This document shows, piece after piece, positions 11,799 through 62,867 of a stretch of DNA of 64,000 nt (its first letter is position 1; every line of letters starts with the position of its first letter). Under the pieces are notes generated by a model. That model was not told the DNA's origin. It saw only the letters and a list, made by a program, of their open reading frames with translations, and did not search any database. Made by a program: the position numbers and the translations under genes. Source of the stretch: Owenia fusiformis. Taxonomy: Eukaryota > Annelida > Polychaeta > Sabellida > Oweniidae. The stretch is taken from NCBI GenBank assembly GCA_903813345.2, contig CAIIXF020000012.1, positions 22,766,184 to 22,830,183 of the forward strand, read 5' to 3'.

Positions 11799-14700
11799 CT
11801 GAAAAATAAAAATTCATGAACAGGCAGTCATGATTCAGTCTATTTTCTTCATATACCTTTCTACAGAGAGTAAAAAATACATTTTGGAAGAGACCCTCTA
11901 TTTCAGAAAATATGTGGAAACATATTACGAAACTACCCTTACGGAAATACTTTGCTGCTGCAGCGCTGCCGCAGCAAATTGGCTCCAAATGTTGGATGCA
12001 GGTAATTGCAGCCAATCGCTGCGGCAGCATGATGCTGCGACAGCATCATATTTGCAGCGAATTGGCTCCGACAGCGCTGCAGTTAATTGCAGCCTTCTCG
12101 GAGCTGGCTCCGACAGGGCTGCAGCAGCGAATTGGCTCCGACAGCGCTGCAGTTAATTGCAGCCTTCTCGGAGCTGGCTCCGACAGGGCAGTATTTTCCC
12201 GCTCTTTTTATACCAAAAGAAAGATGGCTGACAAAGAATGTTCAACTGTAAGAGATTTGGGTAATTTTATGATTTTATAATAATAGTATGAAAATGACCA
12301 ATCAAATATAGATTCAGAAGTTACTGACATACTTGAACATTCTGCATGTCTATTTTGTGAGAGATAAAATGTAAGTATTGCTGTGTTATTCCAGTTTAGA
12401 TGGGCAAATCTCATTTTCTTTGTGAATTTATAAAGGCTAAATTTTAATTCTATTCATACAGTCAAATTAAGTGGTCAAGCATAAATGTGTTGTGTATGAG
12501 GATTGTACCATGCAGTAAAAATATAAGGTATTTTATAAAGATTATGAAGATAAATACTGCTGGAGGCATAGAGGGTTCTTCAATAACTGGAGCCTTCTGG
12601 CCTTCAGGACAATTCTGAATGGGTAAAATCCCATAATAATTGCTTATATCATCTTACGTCCCGGGCCAACCTAAAATGAACAATTTGCGTGAGATTTCCA
12701 AAAATTGTGGTACTTTTATGGGAGATTTTTCCAAAATCTGGTAGTTTTTAAAAAAATTGGTAGTTTTCGCCGTAGATTTTAAAAATCGGGAGTTTTTGAG
12801 GTAAATTTTAAAACAACTGAAGTTTTTACGGTAGATTTGAAATAAAACAGTACTTTCTTAAAAAAAGCAGATTATCTCAAATTTTTTTCTAATAAAAGCA
12901 ATAGTTTTTGTGGTAAATTCTGCAAAAAGTGGTACTTTTATTGGAGATTTTAACCCAACAAAATCACAGCCATGCAACTATAATGGAAGAGATAGGCATC
13001 CATCATATTGGGTGAGATGTTTTCAATCTCCCTCCCCCTAAAATACCTCAGGCCAATGGTAGCCTTCTCTGCAATTGCTGCGGTTAACCGCAGCTCAAGT
13101 CCCAGAGTGAAATGGCTCCGACAGTGCTGCGGTTAACTGCAGCCTTCTCGCAGCATGCTGCGGCAGCCTAATTTGCATGCTGCGGGAGCGCTGCGGCAGC
13201 CTAATTTGCATGCTGCGGGAGCGCTGCGGCAGCAGGCTGCGGCAGCGCTGCGGCAGCCTAATTTGCATGATAAATTCCAATGCGCTGCGGCAGCGCTGCG
13301 GCAGCATGCTGCGGGAGCGCTGCGGCAGCAGGCTGCGGGAGCGCTGCGGCAGCAGGCTGCGGCAGCGCTGCGGCAGCAGGCTGCGGGAGCGCTGCGGCAG
13401 CAGGCTGCGGGAGCCAGTAAATTTCCGTAAGGGTAGGCAGAAGAATAGTAAATTGACCACGTTCGAATGTCTGAATAAATTAAGAGAAGAATATCTATGC
13501 AGCTCCTTACTCCAATATTTCTTTTGAGGTTAGTTTTTTGCTGTCTGGCCTTATAAGGTTCTTAACCCTCACATACATGTATCTCTAATATGTAACATAA
13601 TAAGGTACTAAGCCTAATTGTGTGTCATTACAATCCAACCTTACAAAGTTCTTAATCTTTACCCTTGTGTCAATCTTATTAAGTTTTTAACCTCTGTGTG
13701 ACTATTTACATTATAAGGTCATTAAGCCGAGGGTATCTACAATATAAATGTAACCTTATAAGGTTCTTAACCCTAATAAGTCTCTACTATATATAACCTT
13801 GCATGTCTACAAATCTGATAATGTTCTTAACCCTTGTGTGGGTGCATCTATTTTAAAACCTTATAATGTTCTTAACCCTTGTGTGGGTGCATCTATTTCA
13901 AAACCTTATAATGTTCTTAACCCTTGAGTGCATCTATTTTAAAACCTTATAATGTTCTTAACCCTAGGGTGCATCTATTATAAAACCTTATGATGTTCTT
14001 AAGCCTTGGGTGCATCTATTTTAAAACCTTATAATGTTCTTAACCCTTGGGTGCATCTATTTTAAAACCTTATAATGTTCTTAACCCTTGGGTGCATCTA
14101 TTTTAAAACCTTATAATGTTCTTAACCCTTGGGTGCATCTATTTTAAAACCTTATAATGTTCTTAACCCTTGGGTGCATCTATTTTAAAACCTTATGATG
14201 TTCTTAACCCTTGGGTGCATCTATTTTAAAACTTTATAATGTTCTTAACCCTTGGGTGCATCTATTTTAAAACCTTATAATGTTCTTAACCCTTGGGTGC
14301 ATCTATTTTAAAACCTTATAATGTTCTTAACCCTTGGGTGCATCTATTTTAAAACCTTATGATGTTCTTAACCCTTGGGTGCATCTATTTTAAAACCTTA
14401 TAATGTTCTTAACCCTTGGGTGCATCTATTTTAAAACCTTATAATGTTCTTAGCCCTTGTGTGGGTGCATCTATTTTAAAACCTTATAATGTTCTTAACC
14501 CTTGGGTGCATCTATTTTAAAACCTTATAATGTTCTTAACCCTTGGGTGCATCTATTTTAAAACCTTATAATGTTCTACCCTTGGGTGCATCTATGCTAA
14601 TACCTAATAAGCTTTGTAACTCTCATGCTTCTTTCTACTTACCCTAACTTAACTCTTGCATGTCTACTAACCTTATAAAGGACAAATCCTATCTGTAGCT

Positions 14701-20700: not shown

Positions 20701-23700
20701 TCAGGCGGGACTCATATGGGCGCTAATAAGGACAACTTTTTGAACTGTTTTGACTTACTTTAAGCGCCTGGGCGCCTACTACGGCAAATACGGTATATAA
20801 AATATATAGAAATAATTTTCCCATTAAATTGTTGTCAATCAGTCACAATTACATAAAGGACCGTTTTCAATAATTGGTTTAAGAGAATTCAGTTTACCAT
20901 ATCGATACCAATCCTTTTACAAAAGTAATTTTAACCATATGTATTACATTATAAAAGAAAAGGAAGTGTAAAATATTTTACCCATCACTCCATGGCCCAT
21001 TCCATTCTGTTGAATCACCCCATGGATTTCTAACTCTGATCAACTTTTCGAAACCAGCTCCTTCCTGTTTAATCTACAAACAAATATAAAGCATGAGAAA
21101 AATGTATAGTTGTTTAAAGCAGTAGCAGTATAGAATAAACTAGCAGTATAGAAATAAATAAGTAGTATAGAAATAAATAAGTAGTATAGAAATGAATAAC
21201 CAGTATAGAAATGAATAACCAGTATAGAAATAAACTAGCAGTATACAGTATAGAAGTAAATTAGCAGTATAAAAATAAATATTGCAGTGTGGTAGCTTAG
21301 GCAAAGTTAAGATTCTAAATTGAAGAGAATTTGCCATGATCAGGAAAAAATCTACAGCATATGGCATTATCATTAAAAATAATCTACCCAATATAACAAT
21401 CAAAGTTCTAAAAGAGATGGCATTTTGGTATAGATGTGAGTATAATACTTTACCCTTGCAACTCCGGTGATAGTGTAGGCATGCCCTGACACTAAACCAT
21501 TTTTATCAGCATGGTCTGATGATCTCCAGTCACCCTATAATTGAAGAAGAACATTCAATTAAAGACTCAATTTTGATTCATGCTATAACAGTATCATAAA
21601 CTGTGACATAGTGTAGTCAGCAGGGTGGTGGTCTAAACACACAATACAAGACAACACAATATGCTATATAATTCAAGAACTGTTTGGTTCTATGATTCTA
21701 ACAACTGAGAATTCAAATGCCTCTTACAGGATATGTAAGCACGTAAGAGTTTGCTTTTACAGAAAATACGTTCTTTTTTCCACACCAAAATTATTGATAC
21801 ATTAGCATGCCTTTTCATTTCAACCAAGCTATGTAAATCAAGTCCAATAATACCAATAGTTCCACTTAGAGGCTTGGTAGCGATGGTGAACTAAATTGAA
21901 CACATGTTTCTCTTAAACCAGTCATTAAAAAATCTGAAAAAATTACAAATCATCAATTTAATGGTCATCTTTTGAATGGTCACAATTTAAAAATCCGACA
22001 CTTCTTTTGTTCTTAATACCATATGTTCAGAATGAATTGAAATTTCTATCCGAACCTTATTGTAAAAAAATAACATATACGCAACGTTTTTAGGTATCTC
22101 AATATTGTAATTGTACAAAGAAAAGTTTGGTTCATTTATAAGATAATCTTGTTAATGAAATAAAAGGAACTTTTTATCTGTTTTGGGGGTTTTATTTTAT
22201 GTTTTGATTACTTTTTTTTAAATGAACCAAACTTTATTTTGTTTAATTATGATATTAAAAGGTCGAAGAAAATGCACTGTGTCTTTTTACAGAATGTTTT
22301 CAATGATTGGTTTAAGAGAAAAACATTGTTGAATTCAGTTCTCCATATCGATCCCAATCCTTTGCCTTTCATATTATAAGATCCTGTCTATGCCTTTGCT
22401 CAAACATAAAATTTAGATTAACTATGAAACAAAAAATATTTTCAGGAATGTAATATCAAAAATCACCTTCTTAGAACAAGCTATGAAAGAACCTGCTTTT
22501 TGAGCTCTTCTGAATTTCTGGTACAATTTATTGTCTGGGTTATTGTAAATGTCATATATCTCCCCTAGTCCTCCAGTCAGATCAACCAGGGCATCCATAG
22601 ACTGGCCTCCCTCTATAGCTTCATATGAGCCATGCAATCTGAAAATGTGTAAAAATGGTTTGGCGTCAAATCTAGTAGATCAGTGAGACTAGGTAAATGA
22701 CAACTGGGTGATATTTGGCTGTTAGGCTTTGATATAGATGATTTGGCTACTTTAATTACGGCGTTACATCGTCTCGCCAAACTTAACCATTAAATCATTT
22801 CGAAGCATCTAAAATATATTATAACACCCTATGCAGACAGAGCCTGTGGGAAATATTGGGTGCGGAGCAAATGAGCGGAGGGTGCGGAGCTAACGGTCAT
22901 TTTTGAATTTAAATTTGGGATATTTCTGAAGCTAAGCCGTTTTGGGACTTCAAATATACCAAAATATGTGTATTTGACACCAAATATCAATACAATTGTG
23001 AAAATAGTAGTGCAATTCATTCTATAGCGACGCAGTGTTCCTTAAACCTTTCCCAGACCTATATATTTTGAAATTATCCTTTTAATACTGAGTCCCCAGC
23101 ATTCATAAAAAATGGTGTTCAAGGTACACTATCTATACAAATTATTTTTGCATCTTGGAAGCCAGGCAGTATCTTTGTGATTTTATAAAAATTCGGAAAT
23201 GTTTTTCAGATATGAGCCCCCTCTAAATATTGGGTGCGGAGGAGCTCCATAAACGTACCTCCGCACCCAATATTTAGAGGGGGCTCATATCTGAAGAACA
23301 TTTCCCTTATTAGATATTCGTTTCACGGACCTAGGTTCGAGGTCATTCAAAACTAATTCTAAACTGAAGAGTGAAGACAAAGCCCTCTTTTAAGAAGTAA
23401 GATTAAAGGAATGCAAAGGGTATTTTTAAAGCTTGTTTATAGTTTGACAGTTTTTAATAAACATATAAATATTTGGGAAACATGTGAATTCATGTGAACA
23501 GATGCAATCAATTTAAACACGTCACTGATACTCACTTTGCATACGCTTTCTCGAGTAATGCCACCCAGAATTCAGTCTCATCTGAACAGCGTGCATATAC
23601 GAGCTGGTTGTTTTTTGTTGGAAGAAGATCATCAATCAGGACATCAATCCATTCGCCAAACCTCCAGAATTTAAATTTGACAGCACCCTTGTACCCTGGA

Positions 23701-25481
23701 CCACTAAGAGGCTGGTTACATGGGAAAATCTACATGTAAAGTGAAACTCATTTAAATGTAATACTACATTAACATAAAAGTTTAATGGCCAAAAATTTAT
23801 AAAAAGCTAAATATTTCTTTTGCCAGATTAGCTTGAGGTATTGTTGATGATGTAAGCAAGACAACAGTGCATCTTGAAGATGGAATAGATACAGTTAACT
23901 TAATGAGAATCATATTATTTAACTGGGCAGAGAATAACACTTTTTGGTCCATGCCCTTTTTTCAGGCACCAAATCTGTAAGAAAGTCTCCAAGTCAGTAA
24001 TGAGACCATGATGAGACAGATCTCTCACTCTACTAGGCCTACCTATATATACTTCACATTAATGATGAACTCAACAAATTAAATACAAGTATGACAATCC
24101 ATTTTGTACATTGGTGTCAGCAGTGGGATCAATTCTCAAATTATGAGAAAAGTAAAAGAAATCAAGAAGTAAATATGGCATGTGTAATTTACCATTTTCA
24201 TGAACCTCTCTTGTTGTGAAACTGCAGCACAGGAGGAAAGAAACCAGCAGTCCCCAAGTTCACCTTGTTTGATGTCCTCCTTACTGACTCCATCCACCAA
24301 TAGTCTTGGTTCTTTGCCATCCTCCAGTATGTCCTTATAAAGAAATGACAAAAATATTTGAATTACTCTGCATTTTGGCAGCAAAAGGTAATTGATTCAA
24401 TTTTAGATCATCAAATACAACACTATTCAATGTAAATAAAAAACATAATTTTATATTCCATTAAGCAATTCTATTTTATTTTTCTTACTTTCTATACAAT
24501 ATAAAATAAATTAGGATGCTACTCTCTGGAATTTTCTATGCATTTAGGTGTTACATGGTGTAAATTATTGTTTATTAATAGACAAGTACTGTGACAACCA
24601 AATTCAGCTGCTAGATTGAGATTTTTTTGACCAAAGATTCCTTCAAAAACAACTTTTTGAATTAAAGAAATTCAGTCATTTATGACACATATGCAGAACA
24701 AGCTGCAATTCTATGAATATATGGAGACACTTTCCAAGGGATGACATGAACAATAAATTCCAAAAAACCAAACAAGTTACCTTTGGTCGCTTCCACTCTA
24801 TATCTGGATCTACCCGTCCTTCTGAATAATAAAGGGCCTCATTGTCTGCTGGGAAATCTGCGTCACAGTACAATTCATCGTCAGACAAAACTTTCAGTTT
24901 TTCAATCATGACATCTTCTGTCTGAAAATATATAATACTTGGGGGTAAAATGTATAGGCTAGTACTAGGCCTAACTCTGTCAATTTTTGTGATTTTTTTT
25001 TAGTTTTGTAAAAAAGTAGAAAATGACAGTTTGGTGATGGGTACTTCATCGACAACAATCTGCATCTAAAATGACTCAAAACAGAAGTACCTAAAAGGTT
25101 TGATGAAAAAGTTGTGTCTGTTTATGGTCTACATGTGCAAATTTTATTAAACATTCAATTATCAATTTTTGTAATGAAAGTCCTCTAAGGACAACATCAA
25201 CTTACAGCAACACCCAAGCGTCCGTCTCCATAATCGCCCAGAGGAAGTTTATTTGGTGGTTCCTCTTCAGTCTTCATTCGTTCAACTGGTTCATCTTCAT
25301 ACTTCACTTCCTCGGCATCCTTGCTACTTTCATGTTCACTTGCCTCGCATGTCTCTGTTTTACCATGGAGATGTTCATCATTTGGATTGTTTTTCTTTGG
25401 ACTTGGGGAATTTGATTTTTTTGGACTTCTGGGTCCCGTATTGTCACTGTTATCTGTCGTTTTACTACCCCCACAACCCAT
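11568..25481 (-). CDS. Calpain-type cysteine protease lacking EF-hands, complete, 11 coding exons, 582 aa
   Basis: Calcium-dependent intracellular cysteine protease of family C2, which cuts substrates at limited sites. Residues 1-110 are a hydrophilic extension beginning MGCGGSK, matching an N-myristoylation signal (Gly2, Ser6) with a palmitoylatable Cys3, so membrane anchoring is likely. The protease core runs from about 111 to 365: LYCDADFPAD, the WKRP motif, QGELGDCWF with Cys168, SGHAYTITG with His326, and RVRNPWG with Asn351. All three catalytic residues are present. The C2-like domain III follows (about 366-576), with AGGCRN, NPQF and an acidic loop. The protein ends GYAFSS-TAA, and no penta-EF-hand domain was found downstream, so it is shorter than classical calpains (about 700 aa). 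All ten introns are GT-AG and phases agree. The last exon contains a possible donor (gtatgc) six codons before the stop, so a longer isoform cannot be excluded. Confidence 0.93.
11933..13436. mobile_element. GC-rich TIR element, about 1.5 kb
   Basis: Bounded by ctacccttacggaaat (11933-11948) and its exact complement atttccgtaagggtag (13421-13436). Both flanks inside carry arrays of ctgcggcagc/gctgccgcag motifs and gcagccttctcggagctggc blocks. It lies in calpain intron 10. No transposase frame; non-autonomous. Confidence 0.8.
13540..14620. repeat. 41-bp minisatellite, about 19 well-conserved units plus decayed ones
   Basis: The unit contains aaccttataatgttcttaac followed by ccttgggtgcatctatttta. 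Units from about 13850 to 14600 are nearly identical, and 13540-13840 are diverged units. It ends about 70 bp from the calpain exon-10 splice donor. Confidence 0.9.
14672..14805 (-). CDS. Calpain exon 10 (acidic loop of domain III)
   Basis: Begins phase 1 after tttgtag and ends phase 0 at TATAAG|GTTAGT. Encodes an Asp/Glu run (DDDDDEDEDE, counting the split codon), then ACVVIALMQEHRR and LQIGFVLYK, the conserved domain III segment. It bridges exons 9 and 11 exactly in phase. The (GAT)n tract starts directly at the acceptor. Confidence 0.92.
14806..15349. other. Calpain intron 9, ordinary part
   Basis: No exon or clear repeat recognised between exon 10 and the family A element. Confidence 0.4.
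15350..16512. mobile_element. Family A element, copy 2 (inverted relative to copy 1)
   Basis: Starts agaacaacggcaacgccaaa, then cgtagcgaatcccatcgaac; ends with an (acgg)n run at 16399-16470 and cctccgaacttcgttcgatg-ggataa. The interior has the same units with an aaaatggcggccatttt-type palindrome. It lies in calpain intron 9. Confidence 0.8.
16539..16655 (-). CDS. Calpain exon 9
   Basis: Phase 1 to phase 1. Encodes GEWKEDTAGGCRND and NPQFDLHITDV, the start of domain III. Donor is gtaagt. The family A element copy 2 ends about 26 bp into the following intron. Confidence 0.92.
17021..17190 (-). CDS. Calpain exon 8
   Basis: Phase 2 to phase 1. Encodes HSNWDNV, then GEFWMSFDDFCAQFNQVTIC (conserved core end), followed by DFDGDGDADQ, an Asp/Gly run resembling a calcium-binding loop. 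Confidence 0.93.
17435..17525. repeat. Dispersed repeat with second copy at 19510-19600
   Basis: Begins ttattatgcgcaatgactta and contains gacagtcaatcagattgcga. The second copy in the same intron is about 90% identical by eye. It is followed by many cgcgggatttcgcgggac blocks (17530-17910), which recur at 19360-19480. Confidence 0.7.
18152..19331. mobile_element. TIR element, about 1.2 kb (GTTGTCCGAAACCC ends)
   Basis: Left end ggggtcaacccagttgtccg-aaacccaattctccgaa; right end is its complement with few mismatches (ttcggagtattgggtttcgg-acaactggggtgtaccc). TIRs are about 36 bp. No coding capacity was seen. It lies in calpain intron 7. Confidence 0.75.
19560..19735 (+). promoter_or_regulatory. 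Promoter-like cassette in calpain intron 7
   Basis: Two CCAATCAG boxes (19562-19570 region and 19694-19701) precede tataaaag at 19727-19734. The first box lies in a dispersed repeat. No convincing gene follows, so this may be the promoter of a transposable element or a chance arrangement. Confidence 0.3.
20374..20914. mobile_element. MITE-like element (about 0.54 kb), copy with decayed left end
   Basis: Related to the element at 21871-22370: shares tttaaaccagtcatcaaaaa near the left and tttaccatatcgataccaat-cc at the right. Confidence 0.55.
20982..21073 (-). CDS. Calpain exon 7 (catalytic Asn)
   Basis: Phase 0 to phase 2. Encodes EKLIRVRNPWG, with the catalytic Asn351, then EWNGPWSD. Confidence 0.93.
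21115..21285. repeat. Short tandem repeat, about 20-bp unit
   Basis: Repeats of agtatagaaataaata and variants in calpain intron 6. Confidence 0.8.
21454..21534 (-). CDS. Calpain exon 6 (catalytic His)
   Basis: 27 codons, phase 0 to 0. Encodes GLVSGHAYTITGVAR, with catalytic His326. Confidence 0.93.
21871..22370. mobile_element. MITE, 500 bp
   Basis: TIRs of about 60 bp: the left end has ggcttggtagcgatggtgaa and tgtttctcttaaaccagtca; the right end is the complement, ending gatcccaatcc. Half copies occur at 17310-17390 and 41460-41579. Confidence 0.7.
22467..22638 (-). CDS. Calpain exon 5
   Basis: Phase 2 to 0. Encodes LHGSYEAIEGGQSMDALVDL and TGGLGEIYD, the conserved segment after the ALLEKAYAK motif. 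Confidence 0.93.
23195..23305. repeat. Near-perfect hairpin, 48-bp arms, 15-bp loop
   Basis: Left arm 23195-23242 and right arm 23258-23305 are complementary with one or two mismatches (core cccaatatttagagggggct). It lies in calpain intron 4. A partial third copy of attgggtgcggag occurs near 22857. Confidence 0.85.
23536..23729 (-). CDS. Calpain exon 4
   Basis: Phase 0 to 2. Encodes KFKFWRFGEWIDVLIDDLLP and EFWVALLEKAYAK, hallmark calpain core strands. Confidence 0.93.
24193..24333 (-). CDS. Calpain exon 3 (catalytic Cys)
   Basis: 47 codons, phase 0 to 0. Encodes KQGELGDCWFLSSCAAVSQQ with catalytic Cys168. Confidence 0.95.
24781..24921 (-). CDS. Calpain exon 2
   Basis: 47 codons, phase 0 to 0. 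Encodes LYCDADFPADNEALYYSEG and DIEWKRPK, the entry into the protease core. Confidence 0.93.
25206..25481 (-). CDS. Calpain exon 1 (acylated N-terminus)
   Basis: 92 codons from ATG 25481, ending at donor gtaag. Ser/Lys/Glu-rich and hydrophilic. MGCGGSK at the start supports this ATG. Confidence 0.9.
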
Positions 25482-25900
25482 TATTAAATTTATTATAAAG
25501 GTGGCTATAAAATGTTCTATTATGCACGATTATGTAAATTTATTCCTTCTATAACATTGGTAAAATCAATGTTTTGTCAGAAAGTTATAAAAAAGTGTAT
25601 CCCGTCGCCGAGCGCCATATAAACATATGACGTCAAAGGTCAAGGTGCTTTTTCATGACGGGAAACGACTAAATAAATCAATAATTCTTAAATTGTCGAA
25701 AGATAATCATTGTTTCTCTATATTAATTATTTTAGGGTCATAATAATATAAGTAAATTGAGTTTTTGTTTATCTTTATCTAAGGCATACTATAAGTGTTA
25801 AGTACCATTTTATTTATTTTGCAATTTACTGTCATGAAAAATGTAAATAAATAAATCCAAAGCAACAAAGATCTCTGTACCCCATTACCCGGGGTTCTGT
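25482..25900 (-). promoter_or_regulatory. Presumed calpain promoter region
   Basis: Lies immediately upstream of the calpain ATG. It contains a palindromic TGACGTCA (25628-25635; CREB/ATF-type site) overlapped by AAAGGTCAAGG (25635-25645; nuclear-receptor half-site type). Motif presence is seen; function is inferred. Confidence 0.35.
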
Positions 25901-28677
25901 ATTTTTCTCTTTCTTGTTGAGATAGAGAGAAAATATTGGCATTTTTAAAGTAACGTTTTTTATTTAGATCTTAAAGACAACACCGTGTTGCACTGGCCAA
26001 GGAACATGTATAAAAAACACGGACATCTAATACGCAGTTCTTCGAACTGCTCTGGAACTATAAAGTATTTGAAGTCCCAGAATTTCGCCAGAAACATTCT
26101 CTCTGACTGTGATAAAAAAGGACCCACGGTCCTGTGCTCACACAGTATTTTGTGCAGCCAATGATGATCAGGGCCGTCAGATGGGGGGGTGCGATGGGTG
26201 CGACCGCACCCCCCTTTGTCACCCCCTAAAAATTTTTTTTTTGAAAAATATTTTTTTTGTAATTTTTTTTTTCATTGACTCATACACTTTGAAAGTACCC
26301 AGAAAGCACCAAATAGCATCTTAAAATTGTAAAATTTTCTAGGGGTATTGGCCACCCCTCACACCCCCCATAAAACAATGGAAAAGTTCTAAATTTATTT
26401 TAGAGTTTTGTCTCAGACACTTTTAAAGTGCCCAGATATCATCAAATAGCTCCTTGATATAGTTAGTGTTTCTGGGGGACTTACTCCCCCTCTTGCATCT
26501 TGCACTTGCATAACCCTCCCCCCTCTGGCGCCCCCTCCCTTGATCCCCCCCCCAAAATAAAATTGTGATTTTCTCAAATTCTTTAATTGACACATCCACT
26601 TTGAAAGTGTGCCCAGAAAGCACCAAATAGTGTCGTAAAATTGTAAAATTTTCTAGGGGGAGTGGTTCACCCCTCACACCCCAAACAAAAAAATGGAAAA
26701 GTTCTGAATTTGTTTTATGTATTGTCTCAGACACTTTTAAATTGCCTAGACATCTTCAAATAGCTCCTTGATAAAGTTAATGATTCTGGAAGACTAACAC
26801 TTACTCGCCCTCTGGCATCCCCACTCCACCTCCCCCTCTGGCAGCCCCCTCCCTTAACACCACCCCCCCCCCCCCTCCCAAAAAAAAAGAGATTTTTCAA
26901 AAAATTTTATTGACTCATACCCTTTGAAAGTGCCCAGAAAGCACCAAATAGCATTTTAAAATTGTAAAATTTTCTTGGGAAATAGGCACTTTTAGGCACA
27001 GACACTTTTTAAGTGCCCAAACTTCATCGAATAGCACCTTGATATTGTAAATTTTGATATGGGGGACAAGCACTTGCTCCCCCTCTGGTACCCCAGCCCC
27101 ACCTCCCCCTCTGGCACCCCTCCCCCCTTTGACAACCCCAAAATTTGAAAAAAATTGTGATTGTTTTTCAATGTTTTTATTGACTAATACACTTTAAAAG
27201 TGCCCAGAAGCACCAAATATCATCTTTGAATTGTAAAATGTTCTAGGAGAGTTAGCCACCCCTCACATCCCCCACAAAACAAAAGAAAATATTCTGAATT
27301 TCATGTATTGTCTCAGATATTTTTTAAGTGCCCAGACATCATCAAATAGCACCTTGATATGGTCAATGTTTCTGGGGGACAACCCCTTGCTCCTCTACTG
27401 GCACCCCACCCCACTTCACCCTCTCATCCTCTTTGACACCCCCAAAAGAATTTGAAAAAAAATCACATTTTTCTTATTGACTCATAACGCACAGGCGTAC
27501 CAGATGATTGCAAATTCACTCCAAATACAACCAAATTTCAAAATTTTCCTGGGGGAGAACCCCCAGACCCCCCTGAATACTCAGTTTTTTATTCACTCAA
27601 CTCTTATTCCCGTGGTGGTGTACTACTTAGAAACTTACACTTTGAAAGTGCCCAGAAAGCACCAAATAGCATCTCAAAACTATAAAATTTTCTAGGGGGA
27701 GTGGACAACTCCTCACACCCCCCACAAATCAATTGGAATGTTTGGAAGTTGCATGCATTTGTTAATTCCAAACCAATACAGGGAGTAACTGACCCCCCCC
27801 CCCCCCCTCTGTCTTGCGCGATTTGATTTACGCGGCAAAAAATGACAATTTTATATTCTCTTAAGCAAAAAACCGCACCCCCCTTGGAGAAAAGTGTCTT
27901 ACGGGTCTGATGATTGACTTTATAGATTCTACACATGAGAAAGTTCCCTAAAAATGGCAGTCCTACTTTTTGTCACATTTTATAGAGTAAACACCAAAAA
28001 CTGGAATTTCAAATGCGCGAACATAAGTTGCATTAATGCAGCAACTACTGAAAATTCTACTTCAACAAAGTGTCTAGTATTTACAGAAAATTTGACTTTT
28101 TGACGTCAAAATCAGCAATTTCTCAGAAACCGGGTAAACTTGGGAAATGGTGATGATAGGTCAAATAGGCATTATGGATATGCATAAAATGAATGTGGAT
28201 ATGACTCAATCCGAATAGCAGTTTTAATTTGTGCAGCCAATATTGACGGATGGACGGAACGGACAGACCAACGGACAGACCAATGGACGGCCAGACACCT
28301 GGTCGATCCCATAGGCTCACTGTGTGAGCCAAAAAGGTTGAGTTGAATACCTCTTTTTATACGTGTTCCCAGGCCTATGTCTTGTTGTCTTGAATAGATA
28401 TTTTACCTCATTCGACTTAACTCTTTCCACCATCCATCAATTGATGAATTTTATATGTACATTTCCAAAACATGATAATTTGCCTTTAAACATTACTTTA
28501 AATGCTCTTCAAATCACTAGTATGATTTCTGTTATAAATGTTTTATCTTCCCCACTTCATAAAAAGGACATTATCCATTTACTTGACTTGAAAATTAATG
28601 GGCATCAATTAGTTGTTTTGTGGATTTTACAATGACCGTTCACACCATATACATGTAACAACACCAAATTGGATTCT
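25893..28677. repeat. Segmental duplication, copy A (interrupted)
   Basis: Starts at ggttctgtatttttctcttt and ends at acaccaaattggat. It is almost identical to copy B (28678-29612), except that it carries the insertion at 26169-27907 and 102 bp missing from B. It contains an ACGG-rich stretch at 28245-28290 and a 90-codon frame (28363-28635) also present in B, with no recognisable product. Confidence 0.9.
26169..27907. mobile_element. hAT-like insertion with 7-bp target duplication, 1.74 kb
   Basis: Flanked by TGATGAT on both sides (26162-26168 and 27908-27914). Copy B has a single TGATGAT (28845-28851), which proves the insertion. The left end is cagggccgtcagatgggggg, the CAGGG-type end common in hAT elements. 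The interior is five degenerate C-rich units spaced about 270-450 bp, each with cccagaaagcaccaaatag. No transposase; non-autonomous. Confidence 0.8.
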
Positions 28678-29612
28678 GGTTCTGTATTTTTCTCTTTCTT
28701 GTTGAGATAGAGAGAAAATATTGGCATTTTTAAAGTAACGTTTTTTATTTAGATCTTAAAGACAACACCGTGTTGCACTGGCCAAGGAACATGTATAAAA
28801 AAGGACCCACGGTCCTGTGCTCACACAGTATTTTGTGCAGCCAATGATGATTGACTTTATAGATTCTACACATGAGAAAGTTCCCTAAAAATGGCAGTCC
28901 TACTTTTTGTCACATTTTATAGAGTAAACACCAAAAACTGGAATTTCAAATGCGCGAACATAAGTTGCATTAATGCAGCAACTACTGAAAATTCTACTTC
29001 AACAAAGTGTCTAGTATTTACAGAAAATTTGACTTTTTGACGTCAAAATCAGCAATTTCTCAGAAACTGGGCAAACTTGGGAAATGGTGATGATAGGTCA
29101 AATAGGCATTATGGATATGCATAAAATGAATGTGGATATGACTCAATCCGAATAGCAGTTTTAATTTGTGCAGCCAATATTGACGGATGGACGGAACGGA
29201 CAGACCAACGGACAGACCAATGGACGGCCAGACACCTGGTCGATCCCATAGGCTCACTGTGTGAGCCAAAAAGGTTGAGTTGAATACCTCTTTTTATACG
29301 TGTTCCCAGGCCTATGTCTTGTTGTCTTGAATAGATATTTTACCTCATTCGACTTAACTCTTTCCACCATCCATCAATTGATGAATTTTATATGTACATT
29401 TCCAAAACATGATAATTTGCCTTTAAACATTACTTTAAATGCTCTTCAAATCACTAGTATGATTTCTGTTATAAATGTTTTATCTTCCCCACTTCATAAA
29501 AAGGACATTATCCATTTACTTGACTTGAAAATTAATGGGCATCAATTAGTTGTTTTGTGGATTTTACAATGACCGTTCACACCATATACATGTAACAACA
29601 CCAAATTGGATC
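28678..29612. repeat. Segmental duplication, copy B (empty site)
   Basis: Head-to-tail duplicate of copy A without the hAT-like insertion. It also lacks 102 bp lying between two ATAAAAAA repeats in copy A (26010-26017 and 26112-26119). Confidence 0.9.
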
Positions 29613-30449: not shown

Positions 30450-31122
30450 CTAATATATTGCACATGTACAGTGAGTTCATGAATTTATTGCACATGTACA
30501 GTGAATTTATGAATATATATTGTACATATACAGAGTGAATTCATGAATATATTGCATATGTACAGTGAATTCATGAATATATTGTACATGTATAGTGAAT
30601 TCATGAATATATTGCACATGTACAGTGAGTTCATGAATATATTGCACATGTACAGTGAATTCATGAATATATTGCACATGTACAGTGAATTTATGAATAT
30701 ATATTGTACATATACAGAGTGAATTCATGAATATATTGCATATGTACAGTGAATTCATGAATATATTGCACATGTACAGTGAATTCATGAATATATTGCA
30801 CATGTACAGTGAGTTCATGAATTTATTGCACATGTACAGTGAATTTATGAATATATATTGTACATATACAGAGTGAATTCATGAATATATTGCATATGTA
30901 CAGTGAATTCATGAATATATTGCACATGTACAGTGAATTCATGAATATATTGTACATGTACAGTGAATTCATGAATATATTGCACATGTACAGTGAGTTC
31001 ATGAATATATTGCACATATACAGTGAATTCATGAATATATTGCACATGTACAGTGAATTCATGGATATATTGTACATGTATAGTGAATTCATGGATATAT
31101 TGTACATGTATAGTGAATTCAT
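30450..31122. repeat. 30-bp minisatellite, about 22 units
   Basis: The unit contains gaattcatgaatatattgca followed by catgtacagt. Because the unit is a multiple of three, several frames stay open and translate as MCNIFMNSLY-type repeats. These are not genes. Confidence 0.9.
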
Positions 31123-31625: not shown

Positions 31626-31762
31626 TTAATCTTTGTTGTTGCAAGCAACTCTCACTGACATTTCCCACGTGTCTAGTAATGTTGATAATGAATGTATCTC
31701 TGCTAAACGAACTAGTCGTGCTGTTAAATTGTTCATGACATTTTTCAGGAATTCTGTCATAT
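31626..31762 (-). CDS. MED15: MED15 exon 12 (C-terminus)
   Basis: Acceptor ctttctcactccag, phase 1. Encodes TEFLKNVMNNLTARLV and LLDTWEMSVRVACNNKD, then TAA at 31628-31626. Confidence 0.92.
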
Positions 31763-34700
31763 CTGGAGTGAGAAAGCAAACAAGATGCAACATCCTTTTA
31801 TGTTTAAAATAAGTTTTTAGTATTTATTTCAAAAATCATATATAAAATTTCCATCATAATCATTGCGTAAACACCCAAAAGGGGAATATCTACTGTCATA
31901 TTTAGAATGCGAAAGCAAACAAGATAAAACTTCTGACACTACCCAAGGCAAAGGAGGAGGGAAGTTAGTGCAACAGATTTTGGACAGTCATATGTTTGAT
32001 TTTGGCCATTTCCTGGGGATTTAAACAGGTGCATATGTTAGGCGAATGCATTACCTCCAGGAAAATCACTTCTAGAGATGATAAAATAATTTCGACTTTG
32101 AGACAGGGTAGATGCAAACAATCCACCCACATGTTTTTTCTGAAACGTTTTCCTGATTTTCAACCCCTTCCATCCCTGCTTTTTTAATTTTTCTTGCATC
32201 AATATGTTGCATTTTGACACACAGATAATCCCTTAAAAGGAATAAATGATTCCTTTTAGATAAAGTGGAAAACAATATTTCCCATGTTATTTTCATAAAA
32301 ATCATTGCTTTCAGCTAAGTTCGGTCACCCATAATGGGTATCTTTAATATCCCTGAAGGAATCACTTATTCCTTTAAAGTGGTTAACTATGTGTCAAAAT
32401 GCAACATATTGATGCAAGAAAAATTGAAAAGGGGGTCAAAAATTAGGAAAACATTTCAGAAAAAACATGTGGGTGGGTTGTTTGCATCTACCCTGTCTCA
32501 AAGTAGAAATTATTTTATCATCTCTAGAAGTGATTTTCCTGGAGGTAATGCATTGGCCTAACATATGCAATTGTTTAAATCCTCAGAAAATCGCCAAAAT
32601 CCAAAATATGACTGTCCAAAATCTGTTGCGCTAATTTCCCTCCTCCTTTGGAGGTATACTTACCATAATCTTTATGTTTTGTGTCACATATAGGGCTGAC
32701 TTTAGGGTAACCTGCTGGCACTGTTACATTGAGAGGGGGTACACTCGGGAGATCTTTGTCTTCTGAAAAACATGTTTAAAATGATGTATTGAGTTACCTT
32801 TTTATGAGAATATGAAAATCAAGTGTCAATTCATTTGTCTGTACCAAATTGACAATCACAACAGACCACCACAACATATTGGCACAAACTCTATTTGTTG
32901 TTTCCTCATCTATCAATTTCAAGTGTTAACTATGAAATTTAAAATCTATTTAGGTAACATGACCAAGGGTTAAATTGACCCAGATTTGAGTCGACCAAGG
33001 GTTGAATTGACCCAGATTTGAGTCGACCAAGGGTTGAATTGACCCAGGGCTGAGTTGACCAAGGGTTGAATTGACCCAGGGCTGAGTTGACCAAGGTTTG
33101 AATTGACCCATGGTTGAGTTGACCAAGGGTTGAATTGGCCCAGGGCTGAGTTGACCAAGGGTTGAATTGACCCAGGGTTGAATTGACCAAGGTTTGAATT
33201 GACCCACGGTTGAGTTGACCAAGGGTTGAATTGACCCAGGGCTGAGTTGATCAAGGGTTGAATTGACCCAGGGTTGAGTTGCCTCAGGGTTGAGCATATA
33301 ACTCACCGTCACCATATTGACATAATAGAATGGCCATATTTCAAAATACTCATGCAATCCCATACTTTTCCATCCACAAGTTAAAGGTAACAAGTCATTA
33401 AAATGCAAAATGTCACCACCTAAAATTTGTTACAGACACCGAACACCAACCACTGAACATGGTCCACATAAAAAAGCTGACCATAAATATATGTGGCAAC
33501 TTCTGGTGGTGACATAATGAAATTATTGATTCTGACTAACCTAGTTTACAGATTAGCTGTATATCCTTACAGCCAGCCTGGCAAAGTGGATGCAGGTTCA
33601 CTCGGAATCTATAGTCAAGACGCGCAATTTCACCTTGCAGGACATTTGGAACAAAATTATTTTCTCTGTCTTGTTCAATCTTTTGCTTCTTTGGAGGTGG
33701 GGAGGGGCATCTGGAAAAAGAAAGGGAAAATTATAATATGTATAAGTTACACACACATGATGTTTTGGGGATGTACACACAGGGCATGCCTTAAGCTAAT
33801 TTTCCTTGCTGGTCAAGATGACCGGCAAGATCCAATTTTTAAGTGGTCAAATACAAAACCTGCTGGTCAAGATGACCAACACCTCTCCAAAATCTGCCTT
33901 CATGAGCAAATCTTCCTGGTCAAAATTTTCAAGGCGCTATTTTCAAAAATTGATCTGTGAAAAGTCGTACTATTGTGCAATATTTCACTGAAAATGGCCG
34001 AAATCGCTACGTCTATTTGATCCATAAGTAGTACTTGAAGTACTATAATCGATTAGTTTTTTTACGTACCTTAAGAATTACGCTTGGCACAATCAGTTTT
34101 AAAACTAAATGTGAATATGAATCCATACTTTTGGAGTGGTTTCGCCATCTTTAGATGAACTCGGGTCAAGAACTCCTTATTTGGAGATCACCGGAAGTAT
34201 CTATTTGTGATTCGGTACTTTCCGATTACTATATTTGGAGATGTTCAGCTTTTTCTCCGAGACGAGAATAAAATAAGCATTCTAAATGAGGCTGTTCTAT
34301 TTAAAACTTTAACTCCCTATCGATGATAATTTATCATGTCGTTATACGTGTAGATGGATTTTCATGGAAAGGGGAGATAAAAAACAAATGAACAGCCAAC
34401 AGTTTAAGGGTCATCTCAAAATGTTTAGGCCTCGGACACGATATCTACGCTAAGGCTTATAGATTGGACAAGGTCTCGGTCACAATGACCAGCTAATTGT
34501 GATTTTGAGCCGGTCTTGTCATTATTTAATCGGACAAGTCCGGCTGTCCGACGCTTAAGGAGTGCCCTGTGTACACATATAGCAGAGTACATGTACTTAG
34601 TAGATATCAAAATCATTTTGAATTCCTATATGAGGCAGTCATTTTAGAAATCTCAAGAATTATGGAGATCGCTATTTTCTTGTGATACCCACCAGGAGAT

Positions 34701-37700
34701 GAATCGAGAAACTAGACATGTACATTTTCGAAAAAAATGTTTTCATAGTTATACAGTACAGATGCAATTCAACTGGACAAAGGTCCTATCTAGGATTTAA
34801 TAGATTATAGGAGGACCGTTTAAGGCCAAGGCTAGTGTTTAATACCTAATTGGAGGCCCATGTAAGGCCTAGACTAGTGTTTAATACCTAATTGGAGGCC
34901 CATGTAAGGCCTAGACTAGTGTTTAATACCTAATTGGAGGCCCATATAAGGCCTAGGCTAGTGTTTAATACCTAATTGGAGGCCCATGTAAGGCCTAGAC
35001 TAGTGTTTAATACCTAATTGGAGGCCCATGTAAGGCCTAGACTAGTGTTTAATACCTAATTGGAGGCCCATATAAGGCCTAGGCTAGTGTTTAATACCTA
35101 ATTGGAGGCCCATGTATGGCCTAGACTAGTGTTTAATACCTAATTGGAGGCCCATATAAGGCCTAGGCTAGTGTTTAATACCTTATTGGAGGCCCATGTA
35201 AGGCCTGTATGGCTGGACTAAAAGTCCTATAGAGTGTGTGATTGAGCATTGGCGATCTGGCATGGGCTGCTACAGCATCTAACAAAGGCTGGCAGATGTG
35301 AGTCACTGGCTTGGGTGCCTCTGCAGCTGTGGTTACAGCTGTTGTGGCTGCTGCTGTTACTCCTAACGCAGTTGTGGTTGGGGTCGTTGTACCAGGCGTG
35401 GTTGCTGCTGTCTGAAAGTGAAAAGTATAACACTGTTATGAAACATCAAGACACAGGGTTAACAATATTGTACCTTTTAGTAGAAGATGAGAATATGAGA
35501 GGGATTAATAATATCTCAGTTTATCAAAGTGATGATGATTGTAAGGGATGAAAGTGACCAGTTGGTTGTCAACATTCAAACATCCATAGAGAATCCTTGA
35601 AAATGTGTACTTCATCAATTAACTCTTTCAAATGTGGATTCTTTAAATAATCAATTAAGCATCCAAGCTATTTTAGATTCTAGTAAGTTCCAATTCAGGT
35701 GTTTTAACATCACATACCGATTTTTGAACTTGAAGCTCTAGCTTCTCGAGGACATTCTCACATTTGAGTAGCGTTGACATAGGAACACTGCGCGTCTTTG
35801 TGTCACTAAGCACATCCAGGAGGCGCTTCATTTTACTCAATTCTTTCTTCCTGTCTGTTAAAGAGATTGAAGAATTAAGATTTATGAATGGTGCACATCA
35901 TATAAACAACAGTGTAGACTTAGACGGAAGGACATATTTATTTGGTCTAAATATGCTATCCAAGTTCACACTAACTGTGATAACAAAGAATTTGCGTGAT
36001 CTGTGGTTAATGCATTCATTCAAGTGAGAATTTGATTTTTGCTTTGGAGCCATGATTTATCCAAAAATGAGCATTTACATATCATACCTCAATGAAGACA
36101 CTGAACCCAAATTGACCATGTTATCACATTTGGAAATATTTAAATTAGCGGGATCAGATGTCCAGATATAACCCCTTTTTTGTTCGGCTTTTTCAGGAAA
36201 GCAACAAACTTGGCACATTTGTAGAAACATATGATTTGAGTGGAAAATGATTTCAGGGCAAGTGGTTGGGGGTGGTCTTCATGGATTTTTTTACCTCTGA
36301 CCCCCACCCCTATCAGGTGGGGAGGGGTAAATTATAAAAAATAAATAAAAATGGTTTCAAAGTATTTTTGTTTAAATGACTTCATTTGGTGATTGCTTTG
36401 AGCCTTGAAATGATGTAAAACTCATTTTAGAAGTGGTATTTAGTGAGGAAAATACTTATAACCCAATTATCCAGGAGAAATTCATTATTTAAAGGGCCAA
36501 ATATGGGACGTCCATTACTGTATTTCAAGAATGTGATGACTAATAGTCTTAAAAAAATTCACAGTAATAGAAGTATAAGTGTTTATTGCAGATAGAAAAT
36601 ATTGCTTTGGTAGCTGATGTATTCTCAGAGAAAAAAATTATCGAAATTTCAATTTTTTGGTCCATTTGGCTCAGGGGTAACCTTATCTTACCTCAATAAT
36701 TTTTAAGATAGTCAATGTATGCATCTCATATGAGCTCAGAATGGTGCTTCTAGTCTTGTTTTGTCATATTATTGCTAATTAGATGGTCAAAAAAGATTGG
36801 AATTAAAAAAAAATTCAAATTTTCATTTTCGATTCTGAATGGCCAGGGGTAACCATATTGTACCTTAATAATTTTCAAAATATGTAATATATCCATCTCA
36901 AATGAGCTCAAAATGATGCATCTAGTCTTGTTTTGTCATAAAATTGCTAATTAGAAGTAAAAAAAAGATTGGAATTTTTTTTTTAATTTAATTTTCATTT
37001 TCGCTTCTGAATGGCCAGGGGTAACCATATTGTACCTTAATAATTTTTAAAATATGTAATATATCCATCTCAAATGAGCTCAATATAGTGCATCTAGTCT
37101 TTCTTTATCATATTAACCCTAATAAGATGTAGAAAAATGATTGATAATTCTTAAAACTCTATATTTTCATTTAAGCTTCAGACGGTCCAGGGGTAACCAT
37201 ATTTTAGCATAATAATTTTCAAGATATGAAATATATGCATCTCAAATGAGATCAAAATGGTGCATATAGTCTTGTTTTATCATACCCCAAATAAGATGTA
37301 GAAAATTACTGGACATTTCTTAAAAATCTGAATTTTCTATTTGACCATATTTTTAACATAATAATTTGCAATGTATTACATATGCATCTAAAATGAGCCC
37401 AAAGTGGTTCATATACCAGAAGTATTGTTATCATATTTCCCCTAATGATAAAAACATAATTTAACATTTCTAAATATCTAATATCTAAAAATCTAAATTT
37501 TATATTTGATGTTTTGACAGCCCAGGGGTAACCATACTTAAGATAATAATTTTCAATGTATGTTACATATATGCATCTCAAATGAGCTTGAAATGGTGTA
37601 TATAATCTTGTTTTGTCATAACATTTCTAAGGAGGTGGAAAAAATGATCAGATTTTGATTTAGCTTTTGACTGGTTATAGGTGGCCTCATTTTACCATAA

Positions 37701-46700: not shown

Positions 46701-49700
46701 CAGAACATTAAGTGTCAGGGTATTATATGATACAGCTTACACACTGGTGATCCGCTCGATTACGCTGGTTACCAAAACGAGCCGTTTCAGTAACAAAATG
46801 TCGGAACGTCGAAGGTACGATTTTTCTTTTTTGCTTATTTCGCTCGTTGTAGGCAGAATCCCCATGACATTTTTTCTCACAAACGTATATCAGTATCATA
46901 TGTTTTATAAAAGGTACATGTTTGCGAAAAAATAGCTCAGAAGACAATAGAATCGTCGATTTAATTCCTCACTTAAGTTACATAAACGGTAAGGATTAAA
47001 AGTGTAAATCTTAATTGTTTTTCGAAATACTGTTTCTGTAACTTAAGTGTGGGATTAAATCGACGATTCCGTTGTCTTCTGAACTATTTGTTCGCAAATG
47101 TGTACATTTTCTTAATCATATGATACTGATCCACGTTTGTGATAAAAATGTTGTGGGAATTCTGCCTACAATGTGTGAAATAAGGAAAAAAGAAAAAACA
47201 TGCCTTCGACGTTCCAACATTTTGTTACCGAAACGGTTCCAGCGTAATCGAGTGGATCACCAGTGTTACAGGGTATACCATGTACAGTTGTACAGGAGGA
47301 CATCTAGTAATAACTTACAAGATGTAACATAAGGATTGGGGAGGTCTTCAGCTCGACTTCCTTGGTTATACCACTGATTTGGCCACATTATCCCCTATGA
47401 GATCTCTTTTATAAGCACTTTCTAGAATAGCACTTTTTGAGCTCTTCTGAGGTTTTTTTAAATGGGTCTTTCCAGAACAGGCCTGATTTATCGGTCCTTT
47501 CTAAAACAGGTCACTTTTTGAGGTCCTTTCAAGAAGAGACTTATTTGTATGTGCCTGTTAAACATTTCCTGTTCATAATCCTTACATTGAACATACTCTT
47601 TACTATATCCTCCTGTCATATGTCCTGCATATAATTCTTACGTTGAACTTACCCTTAACATAATCTTTCTGTCATATATATCTTACTTATAATCCTTATG
47701 TAAAATATACCTTTCATATAATCCTTCTGTCACATGTTCTGTTTATAATCCTTATGTTGAACATACCTTTCACATAATCCTCCTGTCATATGTGTCCTAT
47801 TTATAATCCCTATGTTGTCTATCCTCTTTATATAATCCTCCAGTCATATATATCCTATGTATAATCTTATGTTGTCTATCCTCTTTATATAATCCTCCTG
47901 TCATATATATCCTGTTTATAATCCCTATGTTGTCTATCCTCTTTTATATAATCTTCCTGTTATATATGTCTTGTTTATAATCCCTATGTTGTCTTTCCTC
48001 TTTTATATAATCTTCCTGTTATATGTCTTGTTTATAATCCCTATGTTGTCTATCCCCTTCACATAATCCTTGTGTCTTACAAGCCTTTTACTCCTGTTGT
48101 ACATGTCACAATAACATTATTATTCTGGGCTATATTTAATTATCCTATAGGCAATATGCTACTCAGCCAGTATATCATCTCCACTAGTCACTTATCACTA
48201 TTCTTAAATCGCCAATGGCCTCCTACATAGCATAACATCATTGTTATTAATACAAGGGGTGATCAATAAGTAATTATTAACGCTTATTTTGTCAATTCCA
48301 AGTTTTAAGGACGAATAGAAAATTGAATGATACATGACTGATCAAATAGGATTTGTCAATAGGCAACATCTGTGTAAAAAAGCATCCACTTACTTGTTGA
48401 TCACTCCTAATAGCATACAACTATCTAAAACTATCCTCCTCATACAATTGCTATGCTATTACTGTAGGCTTTTAATCAAGGTACTTATTCACAAAGCAAT
48501 TTCATATGTTTTGTTCTCATAATATATAGTTATCTTGATTGATGCATGATGCAGACTTTTGCTGTTATCATTCATTTTACTCCAAGGGCTTTTATCAAGG
48601 AGGTAATGCAATCTTATACACAGCCTCGAGAAATGGCTTTAATTAACCAGAAGCATTGAAATATATTACAGTTTTCTTGAAGACAGTCTAGTACACAGAC
48701 TCAAGAAATGGCTTTAATTAACCAGAAGCATCAACATTATATTGCACATTTCTTGAAGGCAGTCTAATACACAGATTCTAGAAATGGCTTTAATTAACCA
48801 GAGTAGTTGCATTGAAGTGGGTTGAAACGAAACCTAATAGCAACAAGTAGTGTGTATAATATATATTATCAGAGAAATATTTGGGCATTATTAAACTTAC
48901 TTTTGACCAAAGGTATTTAATTCTTAAATATAATGCCTTCTGTCGAGTAACAAACAAGAACAACGGCAACGCCAAAGCGTAGCGAATCCCATCGAACAGA
49001 AATGGCTGGCATTTTTACAAACGAAATATTTAGCAAATATCATAAAATGACACACATAAGAAAGGCCACCATTTTCAAATGGTTGCACACTAGCCAAGTT
49101 GTCATCAGAAGAAGTAATATGCTTTTTTTTTATAGTATTCACACACCAAATATGAAGAAAATCGCTCCACTACTTTTCGAGTTATAGTAAAATACTTTAA
49201 AATGGTGGCCATTTTTCAAAATGGCCGCCTTCTTCCAAAAGTGTCATTAGACAGTGTGCCATGCTTATAGTATTCACATACCAAATATGAACAAAATCGC
49301 TCCTCTACTTTTCAAGTTACAGCAAAAATCGTAAAATAACGAGTAAAGGCCGAGTAAAAAACGTTTAAACGGTGGCCATTTTTCAAAATGGCCACCTTCT
49401 ACCGAAAGTGTCATTAGACAGTGTACCATGCTTATAGTATTCACATACCAAATATTAACAAAATCGCTCCACCACTTTTCGAGTTATAGTAAAATACGTT
49501 AAAATGGTGGCCATTTTTTAAAATGGCCGCCTCCTACCAAAAGTGTCATTAGACAGTGTGCCATGCTTATATTATTCACATACCAAATATGAACAAAATT
49601 ACTCTCCTACTTCTTGAATTACAGCAAAAATCGTAAAATAACGAGTAAAATAAGGCCGCCATTTTTCAAGATGGCTGCCATGTGCTTCTTTAAAGTCCCC

Positions 49701-52700
49701 GTCAAAAGTTTAAAAATATTTTTCTATCATTCATTAACTATTTGTCAGGACTTAAAAAGTGATTTAGAGATTTTTAAACAAAAAAAAATTTTTTCAAAAA
49801 AAGTTGTGAGCATTTCATTTCTCAAATATTCAAATTTACCGCCATTTTTCAAAAAAAGTTGAAATTTCTTAATCATCAAATATTTCTAAATGCATTTCAA
49901 AAAAGATTATCTTTTTAATACCACTGCAAAGATTGAACAAAGGACACACTATTTCAATAATAAAATGCCATATTTAATGGGCCACTTTAATGTTTTAGCA
50001 TATCAAAAATATTTTGAAACATTAGTGATGTCACTAAGGTAGCAAAGACTTTTTGAAAAAAAAATTTTCTAAATATGCTAGACTTTCATAACAAGGCACA
50101 GACGTGAACAATATCGTACCTAAAACACAGCAGTGTGGTCTTGTTGACCAAGAAAGCAAGATGGCCGCAGAAAAGTTAATCAACTCTAGAACTTATCACT
50201 ATGTAACATATGTAAAAATTTGAACGGTTTGTCTGGAAACCTGTAGACAAGTCTTGAAAGTGAAGATTTTAGGACGGAAAATCCAAAATGGCCACCTTAA
50301 GATTTACCCAGAATGCCCAAAAACTAATCAGTTCTTGACGTTGATATGTAGAAACATCCCTGAAAATTTCAGATGAATCCCTCAAATGGTTTGGCGTGAA
50401 ACCTGTAGAAAAGCTGAAAAGTGAGACGCCACCCGCCGCCCGCCCGCCCGCCCGCCCGCCGCCCGCCCGTCAAGCTGACTACAATATCGTACCTTTTGTT
50501 AGGTACGATAAAAAAACCAATGTTGATTGTCTAACCAGGTTAAAAGGAAGAATAAATTAGGTTTTAGATATCATTATACCATTGGTTTCTATGAGAACTA
50601 AAATTTTGAAATGCATTTTTCTCAGAACCATTTTCATGCACTGATAAGTTCATTTCTCGCTTATTTATGAACTGTGAAACCATGAAAAACATGGGAGGAT
50701 GAATGCTATGCATTGGTATGAATTGTGGCTAATTAGAAGATATGAATGACCTCTAAAAGTTGGTTTTAAATAAATTCACAAATTTTGGAACAAAAGGTCT
50801 ATCAAAAACCACTTTTTGAAATTTAAAAAAAAAGTTCCACACATCACACTTTGAATTGATAACATTGGGTAAGACTACAATATTAAGCCAAAGTGGTTTA
50901 AACTTTATATGGGGCCTTTAATATCTACATTTCTAGCTTTATCAATATATCCTAAATAATTTTTTTACATTTAAAACATATTGCTATTATAGTTTTACAT
51001 ATTGCACCTAATTTACTGTAAAATCGGCACTAAAATGGGCGCCATTTTTAAATGAGTGGCCATTTTGAAAATCGGCTTTCGAGCAGAACTTCTACCCCCA
51101 TAGGGTATATGTGTACAAAATATTAACAAAATCGGGCTAACGGTATTTGAGTTATTGCCCGGACGGACGGATGGATGGACGTACAGATGGACGGAGGGGT
51201 TCCCTATATCCCTCCGAACTTTGTTCGATGGGATAATTATCAAACTTGAATAATGTTAATATGTATGAAACTGCAATAAATAAACAATAATAAAAATCAT
51301 AGATCTTCAGAGAGGATTTTTCTTTAAAGAATGACTTAACGCCATCAAGAATTAATCCATTTTTGTGTTTTACTTTACAGATAAACAAAATTATATCTAC
51401 TCGTATTATTCACATGAAACAATAAAGTGATTGAGTTATTGACGCACTGGGAACAACCTTTAAGTAATTGCAACACTAGAAACAAACCTGTTTATAGAAA
51501 TAATCAATCCATTGCCAGAAATAAATCTCAATTTATTCTCGGTGATTGTGACATCTTATTTCGAGAACAAATTAGGACTGATTTGCACAGGTTATAAATA
51601 GCTGAGGTTGAGAATAATAGAGAATAAGTGCTCACTAAAATATCAAAGAGGACACAAAAAAACATCTTGCCATTATATGAGGGTTGATCCAAAAGTTCTG
51701 CAAATTAATGAATTAGTGCCATTGGTACTGCACACTTGACTCAAATTAATGGTGCTATACACTGTTCTCAGAATATTGATGCTGTGCGTTATACAAATAT
51801 CAATTGATCCTATATACTTAGCTCAAATTAATGGTGCTTTACATTATACTCAAATTAATAGTGCTATACACTGTACTCAGAATAATGGTGCTATGCACTT
51901 ACTCATATTAATTGGTCCTATATACTTAGATCAAATTGATGGTGTTTTATATTATACTCAAATTAATAGTGCTTCAAATTATACTCAAATTAATAGTGCT
52001 TCATATTATACTCAAATTAATAGTGCTATACATTGTACTCAGAATAATGGTGCTTTGCACTATACTCATATTAATTGGTCTGATGTTCCGAACTCAAATA
52101 AATGTTACTATGCACTAAATACTCAAATTAATGGTGCTTTACATTATACTCAAATTAATAGTGCTATACACTGTACTCAGAATAATGGTGCTTTGCACTA
52201 TACTCATATTAATTGGTCTGATGTTCCGAACTCAAATAAATGTTACTATGCACTAAATACTCAAATTAATGGTGCTTTACATTATACTCAAATTAATAGT
52301 GCTATACACTGTACTCAGAATAATGGTGCTATGCACTTAGTCATATTTATTGGTCCTATATACTTAGATCAAATTGATGGTGTTTTATATTATACTCAAA
52401 TTAATAGTGTTTCACATTATACTCAAATTAAAAGTGCTTCATATTATACTCAAATTGATAGTACTGTGCACTATGCTGCAGTCTTATTCTCTCATTACAA
52501 TTCCCATCCCTGATCCTAACAAATTCTATGAGGTCATACTTTAAGACTACAACACAATTCTAATAATATACTACATGTATCAATCCTCCAGGTTTTCCAT
52601 TTATATGAAGTGCAAACAGAATTCACCTTAGTAAACAGATTTGCATAATTTTAATCAACATCTACAGAATATCTTGCACAAAGGAGCATGTAGGTTATCG

Positions 52701-62791: not shown

Positions 62792-62867
62792 GTACTAGTG
62801 TAACACATTGCAATATTTTTTGTCATCGTCTGTTTGTATTACAATAGATATGTTCTCATATGCACTG

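Follow-up and report, generated by a model that had tools for sequence, protein, structure and literature searches.

A minisatellite spanning an exon-intron junction of MED15 repeats a 5' splice site in the annelid Owenia fusiformis

In intron 18 of the human ABCA7 gene, a 25-bp variable number tandem repeat (VNTR) supplies with its first GT the donor of exon 18 (PMC5954066). The array is polymorphic, with about 12 to 427 copies, and is tied to disease risk. A donor one unit further on is also used; 2 +/- 1% of transcripts keep one unit and thereby gain a premature stop that exposes them to decay. Retention of one unit does not change with VNTR length, while longer VNTRs go with lower total expression and increased skipping of exon 19 (PMC5954066). 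Internal tandem repeats at exon-intron boundaries have also been surveyed among human paralogues, with an average unit of 30 bp x 4; they are placed in segmental duplications, can alter splicing and may form new introns (PMC2812944).

Here we describe an array at an exon-intron junction of MED15 in the annelid Owenia fusiformis, within a window of 64,000 nucleotides (contig CAIIXF020000012.1, positions 22,766,184 to 22,830,183); all coordinates below count from the first letter of this window. Most likely, the array is an ordinary repeat, and a human gene already provides an example of its kind. A sequence-only reading had called it unusual for a minisatellite to be born from such a junction of a core transcription gene. 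That judgement is weakened by the donor-bearing ABCA7 VNTR and by the human boundary minisatellites already surveyed (PMC5954066, PMC2812944). Among the literature matches listed, no title pointed to MED15 splicing in molluscs, which proves little.

The gene is MED15. Along the minus strand, the Med15 domains follow each other in order, with Med15_N at about 60.4 kb, pieces of Med15_M between 41 and 35 kb, and pieces of Med15_C between 33.7 and 31.6 kb. An ORF at 35718-35897 (-; Pfam Med15_M, E 5e-11) contains exon n-1, whose 5' end is not fixed, and leads through ...LEKLELQVQKS to the donor TCG/GTATGT (slashes in motifs and between paired coordinates mark splice points). Exon n (35182-35411, -; exon 9 of the sequence-only reading) ends in ...YRTFSPAIQALHGPPI plus AG, and its ORF also matches Med15_M (E 7.9e-10). 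It is followed by intron n of 1,471 bp (33711-35181, -), whose GT and AG could be read directly. Exon n+1 (33541-33710, -; ..CPSPPPKKQKIEQ...ICKL) begins Med15_C (E 5.4e-08 for its ORF), the remainder of which lies in two further exons. Its acceptor reads CTTTTTCCAG/ATG, and the position that gives an open frame, 33711/33710, is outside the array. Joining 35182 to 33710 yields the uninterrupted translation ...ALHGPPI-R-CPSPPPKKQKIEQ..., and three distinct MED15 chains from the PDB can be aligned across this junction to a hand-joined translation of the ORFs, reading AIHGPPI where the worm protein reads ALHGPPI. With Med15_M before the junction, Med15_C after it, and the PDB chains running across, the assignment of the gene to MED15 by the sequence-only reading holds.

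The array occupies the 5' end of intron n and reaches back into the exon. On the minus strand, positions 35206-34829 consist of nine intact 42-bp units, head to tail, each 40-42 of 42 identical to the consensus. Every unit comprises the 25-bp exon end including its AG, followed by 17 bp of intron that start with GTATTA; the exon copy carries the ALHGPPI codons. Unit 1 (35165-35206, -; 40 of 42 to the consensus) thus crosses the exon-intron boundary and contains the true 5' splice site, ATAAG/GTATTA, with its GT at 35180-35181, from which the frame opens into exon n+1. Units 2-9 (34829-35164, -; 40-42 of 42) are intronic copies, each with a donor-like ATTAG/GTATTA, and AG/GTATTA recurs in all eight at exact 42-bp steps. 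A degenerate tenth unit (34787-34828, -) continues the array in phase, with 29 of 42 positions matching the consensus and 30 of 42 matching unit 1; here, the donor is destroyed (ATAAT/CT). By comparison, none of the 126,809 positions scored on the two strands beyond the array matched better than 24 of 42. Tandem Repeats Finder (TRF), run on the window, delimits the array as 34796-35206 with 9.8 copies. The earlier description of nine units at 34824-35201 thus refers to the same array, 5 bp off-phase; it had the donor 35182/35181 and its eight repeats right, while the intron part of the unit is 17 bp rather than about 20, and the decayed tenth unit had been overlooked.

Which came first, the exon or the repeat, can be judged from the unit itself. 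Because the unit includes codons that are conserved among MED15 proteins, the exon must be regarded as its source. The opposite direction, in which the exon took over its end from an earlier repeat or mobile element that contained the unit, has a probability close to negligible. No evidence supporting it was found, and the exon part of the unit encodes ALHGPPI, the counterpart of AIHGPPI in the three PDB chains, in frame up to the true donor. Elsewhere in the window, no further copy of the 42-bp unit exceeded 24 of 42, and a 28-bp piece of the unit had no exact match in viral contigs, a collection where one was hardly expected. Relative to the consensus, unit 1 has one mismatch in the 25 bp of its exon part and one in the 17 bp of its intron part, as would be expected if the junction had been copied in one piece. 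A longer original duplication was also considered as a possibility. The 17 bp directly behind unit 10 (34789-34773, -), which share its last 3 bases, resemble exon positions 35230-35213 in 16 of 18 alignment columns (score 24), a score reached by 0.9% of random window segments against the exon and by 5.4% against the 34789-34773 stretch; the match is not significant against other segments of the window.

The nine units vary at four positions only (6, 9, 23 and 40). At position -3 of the donor, where the exon has the last base of its Ile codon, the exon and unit 10 carry A and units 2-9 carry T. The previously noted contrast of ATAAG with ATTAG therefore does separate unit 1 from units 2-9, with positions 6, 9 and 40 varying in addition. 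Since the decayed unit 10 shares its A with the exon, it is simplest to take A as ancestral and T as derived, with all of units 2-9 going back to a single changed copy. Over 126 bp, units 4-6 and units 7-9 are identical, as would result from recent copying of the block or from an assembly error. That the unit number, above all the repetition of 4-6 as 7-9, was produced by the assembly is suggested by this perfect block; we hold such an artefact to be very improbable, given the patterned variation at four unit positions and the decayed outer unit. For the same reasons, an array of some length very likely exists, with its exact unit count in doubt.

We consider it likely that the array is a minisatellite that arose when the 3' end of a MED15 exon and the adjoining 17 bp of intron were duplicated in tandem, that it grew neutrally, and that donors 2-9 are potential decoys. 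An old duplication of the junction would have come first and the recent growth, or an assembly error, later. Growth would have proceeded by replication slippage or unequal exchange with selection weak or absent, since the junction is preserved in its first copy and the rest is removed together with the intron. Normal splicing would be carried out by the first donor. Splicing from any of the eight copies, as potential decoy donors, would leave between 42 and 336 additional bases and an in-frame TAA in the message, and most such transcripts would then be degraded. Individuals probably differ in copy number.

In several respects, the MED15 array resembles that of ABCA7. Both begin at the exon, the first MED15 unit (35206-35165) holds the real donor as judged by frame, and the downstream units repeat that donor, here in all eight intact intronic units (PMC5954066). 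The units themselves differ, that of ABCA7 being 25 bp long and starting at the GT, that of MED15 being 42 bp long with 25 bp of coding sequence; and retention of one unit shifts the frame in ABCA7, whereas the MED15 unit equals 14 codons, keeps the frame and brings its own stop (PMC5954066). With the repeats of human paralogues, MED15 shares the expansion of a minisatellite at an exon-intron boundary; those repeats belong to segmental duplications and may give rise to new introns, whereas in MED15 a single intron is lengthened at its 5' end (PMC2812944).

Intron gain by tandem duplication is related to the MED15 array in cause but differs in outcome. Introns derived from tandem arrays were reportedly described by Zhuo et al. 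in 2007. In potato, tandem duplication also spanned a splice junction (PMC4974935), and in fission yeast, several units with proto splice sites are likewise involved, there of 24 nt (PMC3629103). In both, the new intron lies between the copies, whereas in MED15 the copies lie inside one intron and the acceptor is outside the array (PMC4974935, PMC3629103).

The consequence of using a spare donor follows from the reading frame. Among the ten unit positions tested, donor 1 alone gives an open frame into exon n+1. The joined frames for donors 2-9 all meet a TAA two codons past GPPI, at codon 79 of exon n, as had been proposed, and the Med15_C domain would be lost. A stop with several exon junctions behind it, as in this case, makes decay of the mRNA likelier than a stable truncated product. 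The truncated MED15 envisaged by the sequence-only reading is thus possible, with mRNA decay the more likely fate.

How the spliceosome might tell the true donor from its copies was approached by prediction. A donor matrix with approximate bit scores gives 2.98 bits for the true donor and 1.52 for the spares. On the same approximate scale, the true donor is the weakest of four MED15 donors scored, the others reaching 6.17, 6.17 and 9.75 bits, and 10 of the 80 GT sites in exon n and its intron score above it. Pairing with the U1 5' end is predicted at -5.7 kcal/mol for the true and -5.8 for the spare site, against -15.2 for a near-perfect site. Since true and spare donors are thus predicted to be about equal in U1 pairing, a single base of the core motif is, by these predictions, all that marks donor 1 besides its location beside the exon.

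Predicted RNA folding gave a mixed picture. A lone unit is predicted to form a six-pair hairpin upstream of the donor, and the spare form tried adds a second hairpin over the donor, so that the donor of the lone true unit, unlike that of the single spare unit, is not in a stem. In context, the predicted openness of the donor 9-mer was 0.07 for the true site and 0.02-0.12 for the spares with a 60-nt folding window, 0.033 and 0.019-0.042 with 80 nt, and 0.064 and 0.008-0.020 with 120 nt. Spares more open than the true donor accordingly numbered five of eight at 60 nt, three of eight at 80 nt, and none at 120 and 200 nt. Against 100 shuffled versions, the array region as a whole reaches a z of -2.77, with one version folding as well, which is only a moderate advantage. 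Masking of the spare donors by RNA structure was rejected as an explanation, as the in-context unpaired probabilities give no consistent split between true and spare sites across folding windows.

These properties bear on whether the array does something. A weak true donor in competition with eight copies might set the share of MED15 transcripts that goes to decay, or the extra U1 sites might aid the true donor, or splicing of the next exon might be altered. The low score of the true donor among the four, the equal predicted U1 pairing of the spares, and the in-frame stop behind all eight of them fit such a role, as do the use of the second-unit donor in ABCA7 and the lower expression and next-exon skipping that accompany longer ABCA7 VNTRs. 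Set against it are the constancy of one-unit retention across ABCA7 VNTR lengths (PMC5954066) and a predicted openness that does not consistently distinguish true from spare sites. We regard a functional array as unlikely. A copy-number dial, in which each unit adds another poison donor, array length, varying between individuals, sets the amount of MED15 and the -3 base keeps the decoys just weaker, is in our view very unlikely. Neutrality as the best explanation nevertheless has points against it: on the approximate matrix the true donor outscores the spares, and the effects of ABCA7 VNTR length on expression and exon skipping show that such arrays need not be silent. The T at -3 common to all eight spares could also mean selection against decoys; with only four variable positions among nine units, selection cannot be tested.

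A recursive splice site is defined by a functional acceptor, with its polypyrimidine tract, that adjoins a donor, the AG standing directly before the GT. In the sequence-only reading, the adjoining acceptor-like and donor motifs of the intronic units had suggested that each TTAG/GTATTA might act as a zero-length exon, the intron being removed stepwise. Indeed, AG directly precedes GT in all eight intact intronic units, and splicing there would rebuild a like donor. The acceptor-like ends are poor in pyrimidines, however, with 12-13 of 20 compared to 14-18 in four real MED15 acceptors, and each is preceded by a further AG at a distance of 23 nt (unit positions 1 and 24). Very long introns are typical, though not strictly required, for recursive sites, and intron n measures just 1,471 nt. 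In flies, most introns longer than 40 kb have recursive sites (PMC6110457). Compared with those fly sites, the MED15 units share the AG directly before GT and differ in their poor polypyrimidine tract, in the short intron and in the presence of eight sites 42 bp apart. Recursive splicing at the array is thus extremely unlikely, and that suggestion is not upheld.

Further evidence on how the array originated comes from the other junctions of the gene. When four donors and four acceptors of MED15 were compared with 1,500 bases on either side, the donor in the array found a match of 41 of 42 and the last acceptor one of 28 of 42, against at most 23 of 42 for the other six. The real last acceptor region (31754-31794, -; CTCACTCCAG/ATATGACAG at 31763/31762) is the downstream copy, and the ORF behind it holds the end of Med15_C. 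An upstream copy with the AG changed to AA (31893-31933, -) matches it at 34 of 41 positions with a score of 47 and starts 139 bp upstream of it. Random segments from elsewhere in the window (up to 3,000) scored at most 38 against the last acceptor region. Repeats are so plentiful in the window, however, that 14.9% of randomly chosen adjacent segment pairs reach or exceed the score of the acceptor copy. Judging from these alignments, duplication across a splice junction probably happened twice in MED15, which favours a neutral origin of the array; such an origin is the likeliest.

Tandem and other repeats are indeed common in the region. TRF returned 53 rows for the window, comprising 13 separate loci with at least 3.5 copies of a unit of at least 15 bp, this array included. 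Five other large minisatellites were seen at 13811-14610 (unit 41 bp), 30452-31122 (30 bp), 32960-33293 (32 bp), 47567-48070 (about 58 bp) and 51732-52474 (27 bp), three of them inside the span of MED15. A palindromic, MITE-like stretch of about 700 bp (31949-32650) sits in a MED15 intron, 14 bp past the donor 32664/32663. The segments 28123-28635 and 29060-29572, 937 bp apart, appear to be a recent local duplication, with three listed ORF pairs that differ by one residue in all. Inverted copies of one sequence at 62804-63079 (+) and 63421-63660 (-) lie beside an ORF at 62416-62847, which we take to resemble a cytochrome b5-domain (neuferricin-like) gene; ORFs at 22422-25529 (minus strand) presumably resemble calpain exons.

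In conclusion, the array shows that a minisatellite can start from a splice junction, codons of the exon included. It offers a natural experiment in which a single exon is followed by nine near-identical 5' splice sites, placed regularly every 42 bp, and within the core motif a single base sets the spares apart from the true one. RNA-seq of Owenia fusiformis would show how a donor is chosen among near-equals and how much mis-splicing is tolerated by a conserved transcription gene.
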